From positions 930,001-994,000 of the forward strand of contig NZ_FQWT01000001.1 in the NCBI RefSeq assembly GCF_900129755.1: a stretch of DNA of 64,000 bases, written 5' to 3'. The stretch comes from Chryseobacterium oranimense (GTDB taxonomy: Bacteria; Bacteroidota; Bacteroidia; Flavobacteriales; Weeksellaceae). Shown piece by piece: positions 7,191 through 33,830 of the stretch. The position numbers were made by a program, and so were the translations under genes. Each line of letters starts with the position of its first letter. Within the stretch, counting starts at the first letter, position 1. The notes below the pieces were generated by a model that did not search any database, was not told where the DNA came from, and was given only the letters and a program-made list of their open reading frames with translations.

Positions 7191-8765
7191 TTAGTGTACA
7201 CCACTCAAATCTATTTTTTCTTTGCTTTTTCTTTCCTTAATGAAAAGAATGAACGGGATACACACAAGGAAAATAACCCCTAAATAAAGGAAGACATCCA
7301 TGTATGAAAGTACCGTAGCCTGTTTGGTTACCGACATATCCAGCATTTTATACGCTGCATTCATTGCTGCATCGGGAGTCATTCCTTTTGCGATAAAGCT
7401 GGCTTTTAATCCGTTCAGACGCTGCTGAACATCAAAACTGTTTTCATCGAGGTGCGAAATCAGGTTGAGTCTGTATTTCTGGCCTGCGTTGGCAATAAAT
7501 GTAGTAATTGCTGCAATCCCGAATGAACCCCCAAGCTGTCTCATCATTCCGGTGAATGCAGCCCCCTGGCCGATTTCCTGTCCTTTCAGCGTACTTAATG
7601 ACAGTGAAGTGATCGGGATAAACAGAAGTCCTAAACCGGCTCCTCTTACGATCAGCATCCAGAAAAAGGCATCTTTACTGGTATCCGGGGTGAGGATTTT
7701 ATACCCCCAGAAGCTATAGATAAAGAAAATGAACAGTCCCAGAGACACCAGAATCTGCTGTTTTGCTCCTTTCGAAAGCAGTCTTCCGATTATAGGCATC
7801 ATAAAGGCTGTCGTCAGTGCCGCAGGAATCATCAAAGCTCCCGATTGCAAAGCCGTCCATCCTAAAATACTTTGGGTATACAGCGGTACGATAAATGTAG
7901 AACCGTATAACCCAAACCCTAAAACGAACGACATGACGGTTCCGATTCTTAAGTTTCCGTTTTTCAGTACCCTGAGCTCCACGATGGGATATTTGAAGGT
8001 AAGCTCTCTCCAAAGGAATAATATAAACCCTAAAATAGCCGATACGGTAAATGTTACGATCATTCCGCTCTCGAACCAGTCTTCCTCATGACCTCTTTCC
8101 AGGATAAACTGTAAAGATCCTACAGTAACTGCGAGTAAAGCAATTCCTATCCAGTCTACATCCGAAACCTTTCGTTTTTCCGCATATTTAGGACTTTTCA
8201 CAAACTGTAAAGTCATCAGCGTTGCTGCTATACCAATTGGAATATTGATATAGAAAATATACGGCCAGCTGAAATTATCTACAATATATCCTCCCAATGG
8301 CGGGCCTAAGGTTGGGCCGATAATTACCCCCAAACCGTAGATGGCCTGCGCCATACTTCTTTTCTCAATAGGATACGATTCTGTAATGATCGTTTGCGAG
8401 GTCACCAGAAGCGCTCCCCCACCTATTCCCTGCATCAGCCTGAAAAATACGAGCTCCCAGATATTGGTGGCATTTCCGCATAGAAAGGAAAAAACAGTAA
8501 ATATGATGATGGAAGCAGCAAAATAATTCCTACGTCCGAACTGCTGTGACAGCCAGCTCGTCATCGGCACGATAATAACGTTACCGATTGCATAAGCTGT
8601 GATCACCCAGCCTACTTCAGAAAGTGTGGCTCCAAGGTTCCCCTTCATCTCATTAAGGGCAACGTTCACAATCGTGGAGTCCACAATTTCAAGCAGAGCA
8701 CAAAGGATTGCCGTGATCGTAATGATCACTCTCCGGGCTCCATATTCTACTAATGAATCTTGCAT
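7191..8765 (-). CDS. DHA2-family MFS multidrug exporter (EmrB/QacA type)
   Basis: 524 residues with about 14 hydrophobic segments, the DHA2 drug:H+ antiporter topology. Family marks include DSTIVNVALNEMKGNLGATLSEVGWVITAYAIGNVIIVP in TM1-2 (the D1-type motif of EmrB), a LSQQFGRRNYF loop, and GPPLGGYIVDNFSWPYIFYINIPIG, the antiporter motif C and adjacent loop. It is the last gene of the TetR-TolC-EmrA-EmrB operon and should form a tripartite pump that pushes hydrophobic toxins across both membranes. A 191-bp gap with repeats separates it from the adaptor gene, so it may have extra control. Substrates are unknown. Confidence 0.92.
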   Translation of the reverse strand: MQDSLVEYGARRVIITITAILCALLEIVDSTIVNVALNEMKGNLGATLSEVGWVITAYAIGNVIIVPMTSWLSQQFGRRNYFAASIIIFTVFSFLCGNATNIWELVFFRLMQGIGGGALLVTSQTIITESYPIEKRSMAQAIYGLGVIIGPTLGPPLGGYIVDNFSWPYIFYINIPIGIAATLMTLQFVKSPKYAEKRKVSDVDWIGIALLAVTVGSLQFILERGHEEDWFESGMIVTFTVSAILGFILFLWRELTFKYPIVELRVLKNGNLRIGTVMSFVLGFGLYGSTFIVPLYTQSILGWTALQSGALMIPAALTTAFMMPIIGRLLSKGAKQQILVSLGLFIFFIYSFWGYKILTPDTSKDAFFWMLIVRGAGLGLLFIPITSLSLSTLKGQEIGQGAAFTGMMRQLGGSFGIAAITTFIANAGQKYRLNLISHLDENSFDVQQRLNGLKASFIAKGMTPDAAMNAAYKMLDMSVTKQATVLSYMDVFLYLGVIFLVCIPFILFIKERKSKEKIDLSGVH

Positions 8766-8774
8766 AATATTTTG

Positions 8775-8815
8775 TACAAATGTTTGTATTAATGTAAATG
8801 TAGAATGTATTAATG
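8775..8815. promoter_or_regulatory. Palindrome and 21-bp-spaced direct repeats upstream of the MFS gene
   Basis: TACAAA-TG-TTTGTA at 8775-8788 lies 9 bp before the MFS start codon. GTATTAATG occurs at 8786-8794 and again at 8807-8815, exactly 21 bp (two helical turns) apart. This arrangement resembles protein-binding sites; no regulator can be named. Confidence 0.35.
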
Positions 8816-8858
8816 ATGTAAAATTTGGCTAAAACCAATGTGTAATTGTTTTATGCAA

Positions 8859-8883
8859 GCGGGCTAAAGCCCGCTCCTATTGA
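8859..8883. repeat. Dispersed palindromic repeat (copy 2) inside the efflux operon
   Basis: GCGGGCT-AA-AGCCCGC followed by TCCTATTGA. It is the same layout as the copy at 3049-3073, with compensatory stem changes, and lies in the 191-bp gap between adaptor and pump genes, where a transcript would fold into a short hairpin. Confidence 0.7.
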
Positions 8884-8956
8884 AGATTTAAATTTTTAAA
8901 TTCTCCGATTTTTCAATCAGCCATTCATCAATACATTGTACGTGAATACATTCATA

Positions 8957-10057
8957 CTATTTCAATGCTACCTCTGCTTTCACGTTCATTCCTGTTCTCA
9001 GTCTTTTTGCAATGTTCTTGTCAAGATTTACAAAATCGATCTTTACAGGAAGTCTCTGAACCACTTTTACGAAGTTACCGCTGGCATTATCCGGAGGCAA
9101 TATGGAAAAAGTAGCTCCTGTTGCAGGTGAGAATGAGCTTACTACCCCATCAAATTCCTGATCAGGGAAAGCATCGATCTCAATTTTCACTTTCTGCCCT
9201 TCCACCATTTTATCTACCTGTGTTTCTTTGAAGTTGGCCACCACCCATTTCTGATCGTTTTTAACCAAAGCAAAAAGTTGTGATCCGGCCTGAAGATATT
9301 GTCCCGGCTGAGTGGAAACTTTTCCTACATATCCGTCTTCCGGAGCAAGAATTACGGTGTATGATAGATTTAATTTAGCATTTTCCACATCTACTTCTCT
9401 CTGTTTTGCCACTGAACCGGCAACGCTGATCTGCTGAGAGCTGGCTGCAGTCTGGGAAGATGCAATGGTAGTCTGCTGAGCGATTTGGTTTCTCTGGTCT
9501 ACTAAAACCTGAAGCTGTCTGTCTGCAGACTGTTTAGCGGCCAAAGCCTGCTCATATTGTTGTTCCGTAATAGAATGATCTTTTACAAGATTAGCATATC
9601 TCTTCAGATCCTGAGAAGTTTTCCATACGTTTACTTTAGCTGCTTCTATCTGTGCATTGGCTGTTGTTACTGCTGCCTGGGAAGAGCTGATATTCTTTGA
9701 AGTTGCGGTTGTAGTTGCTTCTGCATTTGAGATATTGCTTTTAGCTGTTGATAAAGCAGCCTGCGCCTGTTCAAGAGCCATTTTCTGATCTCTGTTATCC
9801 AGGATCACTAAAGTATCTCCTTTTTTTACGAACTGGTTATCCTTTACTTTTACCTCTGCTACATATCCTGAAATTTTGGAAATTACCGGTGCCATGTTGG
9901 AAGTAATCTGTGCATCATCAGTTTCTTCATGGTACTGTCCGTAAGTAAAAGCTCTGTATCCGTAGATCCCTCCGCCAATTACTACAGCGGCTAAGATGAT
10001 AGGGAAAACTAAACTTTTTTTCTTTTTAGGTTCTGTTTGGGTATTATTATTTTCCAT
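8957..10057 (-). CDS. HlyD/EmrA-type membrane fusion protein
   Basis: 366 residues: a basic cytoplasmic start (KKKKS), one membrane helix (about 15-32), then the adaptor order of EmrA-like proteins. A half-lipoyl motif (VAEVKVKDNQFVKKGDTLVILD) is followed by a long Ala/Gln-rich alpha-hairpin (about 85-215), the second half-lipoyl (ILAPEDGYVGKVSTQPGQYLQAGSQLFALV), then a beta-barrel domain (VVANFKETQVDKMVEGQKVKIEIDAFPD). It bridges the inner-membrane MFS pump and the outer-membrane channel. It lies between the TolC-like gene (16 bp upstream) and the pump gene in the same operon. Confidence 0.93.
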   Translation of the reverse strand: MENNNTQTEPKKKKSLVFPIILAAVVIGGGIYGYRAFTYGQYHEETDDAQITSNMAPVISKISGYVAEVKVKDNQFVKKGDTLVILDNRDQKMALEQAQAALSTAKSNISNAEATTTATSKNISSSQAAVTTANAQIEAAKVNVWKTSQDLKRYANLVKDHSITEQQYEQALAAKQSADRQLQVLVDQRNQIAQQTTIASSQTAASSQQISVAGSVAKQREVDVENAKLNLSYTVILAPEDGYVGKVSTQPGQYLQAGSQLFALVKNDQKWVVANFKETQVDKMVEGQKVKIEIDAFPDQEFDGVVSSFSPATGATFSILPPDNASGNFVKVVQRLPVKIDFVNLDKNIAKRLRTGMNVKAEVALK

Positions 10058-10073
10058 TTTGGTTTGAGTCTGA

Positions 10074-11387
10074 TTATTTAATTGTTAAAGTTCCTGTTGT
10101 CTGTAATAGTTTTCTGTAGGCTAAAGCTGCATCTGCCTTTGCATTGATCACTCCTACGTTAGCTGCTATCTGGGCAGCATCTGCATCCAGAAGTTCTGTC
10201 ATGGTTGCAAGTCCGTTGTCGTATTTATTTTTGGTAATTCTGTAATTTTCATTAGCCTGTTCAGCTGCTTTTTCATACACAGCGATTCTCTTTTTAGAGT
10301 AATCTGTATTCTGGTATTCTCTGTTCACATCAAGCTTAATGTTGTCATTCAGCAATTCATCATTGGCAGCCAGCTGTTTTTCTCTTGCCTGGGATTGTTT
10401 CAATGAAGAGTTTTCTTTCCAGATATTGGATAAGTTATAAGAAATTCCAACTCCTACATTGACGGCATTGTATATGGTAAGAAATTTTGGAATATCTGCC
10501 GCTACATATCCTCCTGTAAATGCAATTGAAGGAAGGTTTTCAGCCTTTGCCGATTTGGTACCCAATTCTGCAGCTTTTCTCTGCTGGGCAAGGGCCTGCA
10601 AGTCCTTACGGTTTTCTTTAGCTTCATTTACATAGTAATCCACCGTTCTTACATCGGATCCTTCATCAATATAATTCTGGTCAACTTCAATTTCTGTAGT
10701 TTCAGGCAGTCCCAGTAACAGGTCCATATTGATGTTGGCGATATTGTAGTTGTTTTTAGCTTCCAATAATTGCAGTTCTATATTTGAAGTCTGAAGATTC
10801 GCTTTTAAACGGTCGTTTCTTGCGATAACCCCATTGTTTTCAAGCTTAAGAAAAGTTTCGTCCCTCTTTTGCGAAGCGGTAAGGTTTTCTTCTAAAACTT
10901 TGATGGACTGGTTGGCTTTAAACAGGTTATTATAAGCCTGAGCCACATTATAAGCAATCGCTATTTTATCATTTTCAGTGCTCAGCTTTGATGCTTCCAC
11001 CAGATATTTTGCAGACTGGATCCCGTATTTGATTCTTCCACCACTGTAGATAGGAACACTAAGATTAGCTGATCCATAGGCAACCTGATGTACTTCCGGC
11101 CCTCCTGCGGCTGAGACACCCGGAAGTTTCAGATCCACATTGGGTTTAAGAGGAAGGTACATATAACTTCCCGAAACTTTCAGCTCCGGAAGCTGTCTGT
11201 TTTTGGCTTCCAAAAGATCTGCCGTTGCTTCTTCAATTTTAGCGGCATCTATCTTAAGGCTTTTACTGTTCTGGATTCCCAGCTGCACGGCTTCATCGAG
11301 GGTGAGCTGTTTTTTCTCCTGAGCATTTATGGCTGCAATTCCCATAAAAAGGGATAATGCCAACACCGAATTATTTATTCTCTTCAT
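10074..11387 (-). CDS. TolC family outer-membrane efflux protein
   Basis: 437 residues with a signal peptide ending INAQ (about residue 22). Two internal repeats of the outer membrane efflux protein domain are visible: LTLDEAVQLGIQNSKSLKIDAAKIEEATADLLEAKNRQLPELKVSGSY, and in the second half KAAELGTKSAKAENLPSIAFTGGY followed by a long coiled-coil ending ANVGVINAKADAALAYRKLLQTTG. Trimers form the outer-membrane channel and periplasmic tunnel. The start overlaps the end of the tetR gene by 17 bp, giving translational coupling. It supplies the exit duct for the adaptor and MFS pump encoded next. Confidence 0.93.
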   Translation of the reverse strand: MKRINNSVLALSLFMGIAAINAQEKKQLTLDEAVQLGIQNSKSLKIDAAKIEEATADLLEAKNRQLPELKVSGSYMYLPLKPNVDLKLPGVSAAGGPEVHQVAYGSANLSVPIYSGGRIKYGIQSAKYLVEASKLSTENDKIAIAYNVAQAYNNLFKANQSIKVLEENLTASQKRDETFLKLENNGVIARNDRLKANLQTSNIELQLLEAKNNYNIANINMDLLLGLPETTEIEVDQNYIDEGSDVRTVDYYVNEAKENRKDLQALAQQRKAAELGTKSAKAENLPSIAFTGGYVAADIPKFLTIYNAVNVGVGISYNLSNIWKENSSLKQSQAREKQLAANDELLNDNIKLDVNREYQNTDYSKKRIAVYEKAAEQANENYRITKNKYDNGLATMTELLDADAAQIAANVGVINAKADAALAYRKLLQTTGTLTIK

Positions 11388-11997
11388 AACCTAAAAGGTC
11401 TTTTAGTAAATATTTTATATGTTTATTAAGTTCTGTGTAGTATTTTTCATCAAAAACTTCATCATCCGTAGTATCGTTAAGGAATTCTTTATACATTTCT
11501 TTGGCGTTGGATGCATAAAATAAGGTCCCGCTTATAGTGGCATGAAGTAGATAGATAGGAGGTTTTTTGGTGAAAATCCCTTTTTTCAATCCGCTTTCAA
11601 GCACCTGCGAATACATGGAGATAAAGCCCATTTTAGTCTGCTTCAGAAATTCCACGATCTGAGGATTTTCCGTATGAAGCTGCTCACGCTGCATGATCCT
11701 GTAGAAACATTTGTGATGTCTTACTCTTCCGGAAAACTGGTCTACGATCTTTTCTATCTTCTGCCATTCGTCGATATCCGTTCTTTCCAGAATGTCTTTT
11801 GAAAAGAACTGTCCTTCATTCATTCTGTATTCCACCAACTTCTCATACAGCTTTTCCTTTGAACCGAAATAGTAAGAAATCATAGAGATATTTACATTTG
11901 CCGCCTTGGAGATCTCCCTGGTGGAAGTTCCGTCGAAACCTTTTTCAGCAAAAAGTTTTTCTGCAGCAAATAATATATTTTCTTCTTTTGAAACCAT
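11371..11997 (-). CDS. TetR/AcrR family repressor of the efflux operon
   Basis: 208 residues. The N-terminal DNA-binding domain reads ILFAAEKLFAEKGFDGTSTREISKAANVNISMISYYFGSKEKLYEKLVEY (about residues 7-56), the standard TetR helix-turn-helix, followed by a helical ligand-binding and dimerisation region. It is the first gene of the operon and overlaps the tolC-like gene. A palindrome AATCAA-ACGA-TTGATT overlaps the -33 box of its own promoter, so self-repression of the whole pump operon with release by a pump substrate is likely. The ligand is unknown. Confidence 0.92.
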   Translation of the reverse strand: MVSKEENILFAAEKLFAEKGFDGTSTREISKAANVNISMISYYFGSKEKLYEKLVEYRMNEGQFFSKDILERTDIDEWQKIEKIVDQFSGRVRHHKCFYRIMQREQLHTENPQIVEFLKQTKMGFISMYSQVLESGLKKGIFTKKPPIYLLHATISGTLFYASNAKEMYKEFLNDTTDDEVFDEKYYTELNKHIKYLLKDLLGYEENK

Positions 11998-31937: not shown

Positions 31938-32441
31938 CTACTTATCATACTGGTTAGGATGCTTTGCTTTAATATCATCCACCGTACCCAATACTTTATC
32001 TTTTAAAGAATCCTGGTATTTCTGAAGATTTTCAGCAATTGCTTCATCTGCACTTCCTAAGATTTTCACGGCTAATATTCCCGCATTCAAAGCCCCGTTT
32101 AAAGCTACCGTGGCTACAGGTATTCCCCCCGGCATCTGAAGGATAGACAATACGGAATCCCAGCCGTCAATAGAATTGCTCGACAGAATCGGAACCCCGA
32201 TCACGGGTAAAGTTGTGCAGCTGGCGACCATTCCCGGAAGGTGTGCAGCACCGCCTGCTCCCGCGATAATTACTTTCAGGCCTCTTTCCCTTGCCGTTTT
32301 TGCATAATCAAACATTCTTTCAGGAGTTCTGTGCGCTGAAACTACCGTCAGTTCGTATGGAATATCAAGGCTTTTCAGAAAATTCGCAGCCTGTTCCATG
32401 ATTGGCAGATCGCTTTGGCTGCCCATAATAATTCCTACCAT
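31938..32441 (-). CDS. purE: 5-(carboxyamino)imidazole ribonucleotide mutase
   Basis: 167 residues. GIIMGSQSDLPIMEQA at the start, VVSAHRTPERMFDYA with the catalytic histidine, AGAGGAAHLPGMVASCTTLPVIGVP, and GIPVATVALNGALNAG are the class I PurE landmarks. The enzyme converts N5-CAIR to CAIR in purine synthesis. The ATG at 32441 is preferred to a TTG two codons earlier. Its partner purK is present in the window but 5 kb away and separately transcribed, unlike the purEK operon of many bacteria. Confidence 0.96.
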   Translation of the reverse strand: MVGIIMGSQSDLPIMEQAANFLKSLDIPYELTVVSAHRTPERMFDYAKTARERGLKVIIAGAGGAAHLPGMVASCTTLPVIGVPILSSNSIDGWDSVLSILQMPGGIPVATVALNGALNAGILAVKILGSADEAIAENLQKYQDSLKDKVLGTVDDIKAKHPNQYDK

Positions 32442-32641
32442 CTTCAATTTTTATTAGATGGTCAAAGATAAAAAAATATAACCTTTTTTAACATACATTT
32501 CTTTCTGCCCTTTCAGACAAGAATGATGAAAAATATTTCACTTTATAGAATCGCATAAAGAAGTTAAACTGTGTTAATTTTGACTTACCGTTATCATTTT
32601 TTTCCAATATTTGTTTTACCAACAACATAAAATTACTTGTA

Positions 32642-32782
32642 ATGAAAAATTTAAAAAAGCTTAAAAAAGAAGAATTAAAAAAGGTTTTAGGAGGTATGGA
32701 GCCCTGTAAATTCCAGCTTTGTTTTAGAAACGGCAAGTGGACATGTGTTCCTTTTGATACATGCGGAGGATTCGAACCTTAA
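32642..32782 (+). CDS. Double-glycine leader, cysteine-rich (bacteriocin-like) peptide, 46 aa
   Basis: An ORF of 46 residues. The leader MKNLKKLKKEELKKVLGG (residues 1-18) has the [KE]-rich amphipathic helix and LxxVLGG end of double-glycine peptides cut by C39 peptidase-ABC exporters (bacteriocins, ComC-type peptides). The predicted core has 28 residues with four cysteines (22, 27, 35, 41), a tryptophan and a second GG at 42-43, so one or two disulfides are likely. No C39 transporter, immunity gene or modifying enzyme is in the window. Short proteins of this type are common orphans in Chryseobacterium. It has its own terminator and lies in a gap between purE and the EamA gene. A possible -7 box (AATATTTG, 32606-32613) is only a partial match. 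Function is unknown. Confidence 0.75.
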   Translation: MKNLKKLKKEELKKVLGGMEPCKFQLCFRNGKWTCVPFDTCGGFEP

Positions 32783-32787
32783 AAAAC

Positions 32788-32819
32788 AAAGAGAGTACAT
32801 TTTGAATGTACTCTTTTTT
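32788..32819 (+). terminator. Terminator of the double-glycine peptide gene
   Basis: AGAGTACATT (32792-32801), a TTG loop and AATGTACTCT (32805-32814) followed by T6, 9 bp after the stop codon. It shows the short gene is a complete transcription unit. Confidence 0.88.
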
Positions 32820-32903: not shown

Positions 32904-32924
32904 TTCGTTATACCTGATTTCACA

Positions 32925-33830
32925 TTGAAAGATTATAAACTTATTTTTGCCGTTCTCACGGTCGCTCTTGTTTGGGGAACTACATTTCTGGCGATCCGTG
33001 TTGCCGTGGAAACTATTCCCGCATGGTTCGTGGCCGGGATACGTCAGTTTCTGGCAGCCATGATTATGCTTACCATCCTTCTTTCAAAAAAAGAATTTAA
33101 ATGGATAGGCTGGAAAGCCTTTGGTTATCAGGTTATTTTTGCGTCCCTTATGCTCGTAGTGGCCAATGGAATGACAACCGTAGCGGAAGAAACCGTATCC
33201 AGCAGTGTTGCTTCACTGATCAGTGCGTGCTCTCCTATTCTTGTATTCCTGGGAAGTGTGGCTGTTGGTCTTCAGAAATTCAGTTTCCGGGCTCTTGCAG
33301 GTGTCCTTTTATGTTTCAGCGGAATTCTGTTTATCTTCTGGGACGGAATACAGGACCTGGCGAATCCACAATACAGAACTGGAATGATCTTCCTTTTCTG
33401 CGCGATTGCCGGTTGGGCCTCAGGAACTATTTTTACCAAAAAGCTCAATATCCAGAGTGGCAATATTACCCTGAACCTGTTTTATCAGTTCCTGTTTGCA
33501 GGAATAGTACAGATTATGTTTGCCTTCTTTTTTTCAGAGAACTATAATTTCGGAAACTGGAGCTTTAAAAGTATTTCAGCATTGCTTTACCTGGCCGTAT
33601 TTGGTTCTGTTGCTGCTTTTTTCGCCTTCCATTATGCATTAACCAAAATTTCCCCGGTGCAGGTGTCCATACTCGCTTATGTGAATACTATCATTGCTAT
33701 ATTTCTGGGGTGGCTCATTATGGATGAAAAAATTTCCCTTAAATTTATTCTTGCAGCAGTAATGATTATATGCGGTGTCTTCATTATCAATTACAAGCCG
33801 GAAATGTTTAGAAAGCAGAAAATTACATGA
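32925..33830 (+). CDS. EamA/DMT family transporter
   Basis: 301 residues, ten hydrophobic helices in two EamA repeats (first LIFAVLTVALVWGTTFLAIRVAVETIPAWFVAGIRQFLAAMIML; second starting YRTGMIFLFCAIAGWASGTIFTKKL). These are typical RhaT/YdcZ-like drug/metabolite exporters or importers; the substrate is not deducible. No ATG begins the conserved part, so a TTG start is needed. The one at 32925 is chosen because the candidate promoter box overlaps the earlier TTG (32901). Confidence 0.85.
   Translation: MKDYKLIFAVLTVALVWGTTFLAIRVAVETIPAWFVAGIRQFLAAMIMLTILLSKKEFKWIGWKAFGYQVIFASLMLVVANGMTTVAEETVSSSVASLISACSPILVFLGSVAVGLQKFSFRALAGVLLCFSGILFIFWDGIQDLANPQYRTGMIFLFCAIAGWASGTIFTKKLNIQSGNITLNLFYQFLFAGIVQIMFAFFFSENYNFGNWSFKSISALLYLAVFGSVAAFFAFHYALTKISPVQVSILAYVNTIIAIFLGWLIMDEKISLKFILAAVMIICGVFIINYKPEMFRKQKIT

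Follow-up and report, generated by a model that had tools for sequence, protein, structure and literature searches.

How would a small cysteine-bearing peptide with no dedicated exporter beside its gene leave the cell, and what would it do outside? This question is raised by the ORF at 32642-32782 (plus strand) of the 64-kb stretch of DNA analyzed here (the window; C7:930001-994000 of genome G000, 4.6 Mb on 16 contigs). Its 46 codons plus stop translate to MKNLKKLKKEELKKVLGGMEPCKFQLCFRNGKWTCVPFDTCGGFEP, 46 residues with cysteines at 22, 27, 35, and 41. The precursor splits into leader and core as MKNLKKLKKEELKKVLGG/MEPCKFQLCFRNGKWTCVPFDTCGGFEP: a double-glycine leader of residues 1-18 (32642-32695, plus strand), with Leu-12, Leu-7, Val-4, Gly-2, and Gly-1, and a 28-residue core (32696-32779, plus strand; defined by translation and family alignment) with the four cysteines. 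The leader fills the whole 18-position NCBIfam model NF047798 leader_Chryseo ("bacteriocin-like protein"; positions 1-18) at 28.1 bits, above the cut-off of 23.5, although this model describes the leader only and is silent on core, exporter, and disulfide enzyme. Among 14 control genomes, none passed the cut-off, and 8 gave weaker matches (E up to 10). Translation and the model match thus confirm the double-glycine, four-cysteine ORF reported in an earlier note on this DNA, and also its C39 type of leader.

Searches with the precursor placed it in no Pfam family above threshold; PF10439 Bacteriocin_IIc scored 14.0 bits, below its gathering score of 27.1. The match to the putative bacteriocin model NF047792 CCPGW was partial, with 26.7 bits over residues 1-42, far under the cut-off of 80. 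Plasmid and phage sequences contained no match to the peptide at E 0.01. AlphaFold predicted a helix at residues 9-15 and hairpin strands at 25-29 and 32-36 with low confidence (mean pLDDT 61.8, pTM 0.31), and for this reason we claim no disulfide pairing. Profile matches in the PDB were all weak (best E 0.024) and were rejected.

The gene lies between what are, judging by their sequences, presumably a purE-like gene (31938-32447, minus strand) and an EamA-type transporter gene (32919-33830, plus strand). The gaps to the neighbors, 194 bp and, depending on the chosen start, 118-136 bp, are too short to accommodate an adjacent immunity gene, though one could lie elsewhere. Directly after the stop, an intrinsic terminator is predicted at 32788-32818 (plus strand), a 14-pair stem with a T-run and an RNA fold of -14.3 kcal/mol (z -5.2 vs 200 shuffles). 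Orthologues also have a stem at this position, a different one in G061 (by eye). Upstream, a scan for TTG and TAnnTTTG yielded the promoter-like site TTG-N23-AATATTTG with one mismatch (32580-32613, plus strand), judged against what we take to be the Bacteroidetes-type consensus; the sigma-70 consensus used in another scan is ill-suited to Bacteroidota. The call is tentative because only 8 of 30 peptide genes in the genome show such a site, a perfect one in a single case. Within the site, AAYATTTG is conserved in 9/9 aligned orthologues. The orthologue alignment also revealed a largely conserved block, AGTTAAACTGTGTTAAT (32562-32578, plus strand), which varies in its middle in a few orthologues and is possibly part of the promoter or an operator. 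The strong terminator seen in the earlier note is thus borne out, and these sequence features are consistent with the separate transcription unit that it proposed.

At genome scale, the label "orphan" given to the peptide is wrong, because 23 leaders in its genome, its own included, exceed the NF047798 cut-off, and a close paralogue exists. The latter, the closest among the candidates translated, is MKNLKKINRQELKAIKGGINCTGGQLCLINGKWECRPYDGCGGGNQP at C11:465333. When the best 30 leader candidates were translated (7 of them below the cut-off), 28 had 4 or 6 cysteines, one had 5, and one had 8. Judged by their sequences, some two dozen Cys-rich peptides encoded at dispersed sites in this genome carry a common, putatively removable export tag. 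We also noted an element, GAAAAGCWT..AAAGAGTARG, upstream of two leader-like peptide genes and a fossil one (C8:20127, C11:505563, and C13:417). A whole-genome scan with this pattern, which was derived from those same three sites, gave 3 exact matches, and the reversed control gave none; further peptide genes may have a looser version upstream.

Which exporter could handle these peptides? A genome-wide domain search found no C39 exporter in the 64-kb window and two true, intact C39-ABC exporters (PCATs) outside it: PCAT1 at 20 kb of C8 and PCAT2 at 228 kb of C7. Two more C39 matches were far below the cut-off, one of them the VKOR protein. The exporter that the earlier note had placed elsewhere thus has two candidates. 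Its statement that the 64 kb hold no transporter stands for C39 exporters but fails for an EmrAB/TolC-like pump: a row at 7191-11997 (minus strand) encodes an MFS transporter, an HlyD-like adaptor, a TolC-family protein, and a TetR-like regulator, all names except the TolC domain being read from the sequence.

PCAT1 (L065:10306-12498, on C8; 730 amino acids) has C39, ABC membrane, and ABC ATPase domains. In a hand-counted alignment, a Cys, a His, and an Asp of PCAT1 correspond to residues 27, 101, and 117 of 6mpz, which from matching titles we take to be LahT. These three residues form the catalytic triad of LahT according to the accessible text of PMC6363468. By domain content and triad, the predicted protein is a PCAT; the NCBIfam exporter models TIGR01193 and TIGR03796 match it below their cut-offs. 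The gene order is VKOR-thioredoxin, PCAT1, HlyD. The VKOR-thioredoxin protein (502 amino acids; PF07884 at 40.3 bits, PF13462 at 31.6 bits) is encoded next to PCAT1, which makes the previously suggested disulfides plausible. The TolC-type domain has 25 matches in the genome, seemingly in 13 open frames, and therefore an outer-membrane channel is available. Between the VKOR and PCAT1 genes, a fossil leader peptide gene was observed (L065:10060-10320; C8, ~20.1-20.3 kb), consisting of MKNLKKCSKEYNNK and then a stop. This form, a leader start plus a few codons, is shared with G073, and G101 has a full 58-amino-acid gene there. No intact leader peptide was found by pattern in the 19 kb around PCAT1. 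The VKOR-PCAT1-HlyD cluster has thus persisted although no intact substrate gene adjoins it, as expected if PCAT1 serves scattered peptides.

As the best explanation of these data, we propose that the window gene encodes a precursor from which a small peptide with disulfide bonds is released and secreted. PCAT1, whose gene is on another contig, would recognize the leader through its C39 domain and cleave after Gly18, and it would export the 28-residue core in trans together with the HlyD adaptor and one TolC-type channel. The VKOR-thioredoxin protein would oxidize the four core cysteines to disulfides, and one exporter would serve about two dozen peptides dispersed over the genome. Outside the cell, the released core would most likely act as a bacteroidetocin-like antimicrobial. 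Taken as a whole, this scenario is probable, though by no means secure; the proposed export route, considered separately, appears likely. We infer the pairing with PCAT1, the cleavage, the disulfides, and the secretion, while killing is a guess. The function of the released peptide is most likely antibacterial or signaling, and the antibacterial role, suggested by analogy, is our leading guess, held with slightly less than even confidence. From the original proposal of an exported, disulfide-bearing bacteriocin or signal, the C39-type leader, the exporters elsewhere, and the plausibility of disulfides survive; the orphan status does not.

Conservation of the core bears on its function. With the window peptide alone as the query, at least 155 of 173 genus genomes matched at E 0.01, many through the leader only, and a 16-row alignment matched at least 148 of 320 Weeksellaceae genomes at E 1e-6 (candidates scored per genome: 41 in the single-peptide search, 49 for the leader, 22 for the alignment). 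By hand count, at least 109 of the 173 genomes in the genus have strong core-family matches (E 1e-18 or better) and none of the 147 family genomes outside it does, with 22 candidates scored per genome; weak ones to the alignment occurred in at least 34 further genus genomes and at least 5 others. Among the matches listed in a locus scan, 34 named loci comprised 33 from Chryseobacterium and one weak one from Elizabethkingia. These searches assign the core to a family that has no name and is genus-specific in its strong matches. For nine orthologues at the purE-EamA site, pN/pS was 0.090 for the leader and 0.315 for the core; for the seven closest, it was 0.025 and 0.236. A genus-wide set of the L004 type gave 0.132 and 0.109. 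A motif filter applied to loci L044-L125 selected this set (68 loci matched, representing 49 different DNA sequences, with some genomes contributing more than one). The set therefore necessarily looks conserved wherever the filter demands it, and its core pS of ~0.7 is close to saturation. The GNQP tail, which the filter did not demand, was invariant in 49/49 distinct sequences. These ratios indicate purifying selection on leader and core, and the core, instead of drifting freely, is conserved across Chryseobacterium, as the proposal in the earlier note implied.

That the core is conserved across many species sits uneasily with a toxin engaged in an arms race. It is possible, although we consider it doubtful, that the core is exported in the same manner and serves as a signal or another extracellular effector for the producers themselves. 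The spread of strong matches through the genus and not beyond it, the low core ratio of the filtered L004-type set with its invariant tail, and the lack of space for an immunity gene all argue for this, and PCATs export pheromones too, as stated in the accessible part of PMC7018657. Against it, no receptor or regulator gene was recognized next to the window gene, a single genome with two dozen distinct cores looks more like one with an arsenal, and bacteroidetocins are likewise described without obvious immunity genes in the available text of PMC6671954. The antimicrobial exported by PCAT1 remains our preferred reading.

Relatives of the window's genome offered a view of the core family near an exporter. 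Hand matching identified at least 15 genus genomes (G001, G010, G031, G038, G042, G056, G093, G111, G118, G130, G133, G141, G142, G143, and G165) in which a core-family peptide gene is located downstream of, and on the same strand as, VKOR, at a distance of ~0.1 kb in 13 and 0.9 kb in 2. Nine of the 15 loci (L069-L077) encode VKOR, the core-family peptide, more leader peptides, and a PCAT1 orthologue (9/9) on one strand. HlyD comes next in 8 of them; the sequence read for the ninth stops with the PCAT gene. The peptide-to-PCAT distance is 0.8-2.1 kb in six loci; in the other three it is 4.7-12.4 kb, and this lack of adjacency counts against the proposed pairing. The VKOR proteins of all 15 genomes are only 60-63% identical to that of the window's genome, and thus the 15 probably represent one clade and one event, a further point against the pairing. 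We also observed that a second conserved peptide, with a CCPPPGIKRCP core, is encoded directly after the core-family gene in 9/9 loci L069-L077. A peptide of this type also follows the paralogue in the window's genome (C11:465505), and by pattern it was found in 7/27 named loci; a two-peptide partnership is possible.

The same loci weigh on the choice of exporter. PCAT2 (L066:9911-12121; C7:227913) is likewise an intact C39-ABC protein that shares 50% identity with PCAT1, and PCATs are often not very selective in the accessible text of PMC7018657. Export by PCAT2 or another exporter instead of PCAT1 is nevertheless unlikely: the PCATs near the core family in the nine loci are 91.9-93.1% identical to PCAT1 and 48.5-49.3% to PCAT2, and a pattern search of the 19 kb surrounding PCAT2 in the window's genome detected no leader peptide. 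A 423-amino-acid protein adjoins PCAT2 upstream (L066:8596-12121) and has no Pfam or NCBIfam match; together the two perhaps form a separate peptide system. Across the genus, leaders were absent in 10/11 genomes without VKOR vs 3/162 with it (Fisher 6e-13, which ignores kinship). Read by hand, the 173 genomes comprised 10 with both absent, 1 with a leader only, 3 with VKOR only, and 159 with both. Several genomes count against the VKOR/PCAT link: G069 has 4 leaders and neither VKOR nor C39; G030 (weak VKOR), G088, and G137 have VKOR without a leader; and G004, which has a PCAT1-type C39 domain, lacks both VKOR and a leader. C39 proteins as such are present in 169/173 genomes, whether or not leaders are.

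The peptide gene has purE and EamA on both sides in 9 of the best 30 loci, including that of the window, and in two of the nine (L042 and L043) the cores are intermediate with the genus-wide L004 type. Viewed from EamA, the best 30 loci (of 172 genomes with one) comprised 6 with the peptide, 16 with purE adjacent and no peptide, and 8 without purE in the flank. Since only some genomes have the site occupied, the peptide gene was gained at or lost from it. By eye, the 719-bp purE-EamA gap of L147 (G126) contains repeated units of ~100 bp, and GGAAGCTGGAAGTT-like repeats occur in several empty sites. The 16 sites lacking the peptide, together with the already decayed sister gene at PCAT1, could suggest that the window gene is a decaying or unexpressed duplicate of the L004-type peptide. 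This is quite improbable, as the frame, four cysteines, leader, and terminator-like stem are kept at the site in 9 genomes, and pN/pS is well below 1 for leader and core alike. The gene is real: a chance ORF, for which only the shortness of the frame speaks, has a negligible probability and is excluded by the leader score over the NF047798 cut-off, the genus matches, the single conserved site, and purifying selection.

A supposed orphan thus becomes a testable pair, the window peptide and PCAT1. In addition, a genus common in the environment is indicated to have a large secreted-peptide repertoire and, plausibly, a partner that forms the disulfides. An antibacterial role would make it a source of compact disulfide peptides; as a signal, the core would to our knowledge be unusual among the peptide pheromones of Bacteroidota. 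A wider and rather speculative picture, which we would not presently back, is a one-exporter, many-peptide system of Chryseobacterium: a PCAT coupled to VKOR would serve dispersed Cys-rich substrates, with a maximum of at least 47 per genome. Among these, the core family, freed from the exporter locus and copied to new sites, would not be a weapon but a messenger or effector acting outside the cell, strongly conserved and specific to the genus.

An open-access literature search found nothing on the core family, the VKOR-coupled PCAT tie, or the exporter-in-trans arrangement in Chryseobacterium. The system is not categorically new, because its leader class has already been named by NCBI. Pneumococcal ComAB/BlpAB and RtgAB differ from it in their Gram-positive host and in having fewer peptides, and we know of no VKOR partner for them. 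They are similar in that several GG peptides leave through a single PCAT, and some GG peptides are known to be encoded away from any PCAT, according to the accessible text of PMC7018657. The available part of PMC8939145 deals with graspetides. LahT, as described in the accessible text of PMC6363468, holds its substrate leader in a hydrophobic groove at Leu-12, Leu-7, and Val-4 and the GG positions, and the window leader has the same three hydrophobic residues.

The closest comparison is with bacteroidetocins, which in the available text of PMC6671954 combine a GG leader, four cysteines in the mature peptide, a thiol oxidoreductase, a PCAT, and no obvious immunity gene, and whose producers inhibit themselves. 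The system described here shares the leader type, the four cysteines, an oxidoreductase with a C39-ABC exporter, and the lack of an obvious immunity gene. It departs in length, with a leader of 18 residues vs 15-16 and a core of 28 vs 42 in the two peptides whose mature form is described there. It further departs in the distance of the peptide gene from its likely exporter and in one exporter for many peptides, and killing is only presumed here. Peptide, oxidoreductase, and PCAT do not share a locus in the window, and in the nine relatives' loci they do so within 0.8-12.4 kb, with the same core family. We do not place the window peptide among the bacteroidetocins; the comparison, made between descriptions and not sequences, supports the view that it may work like them.
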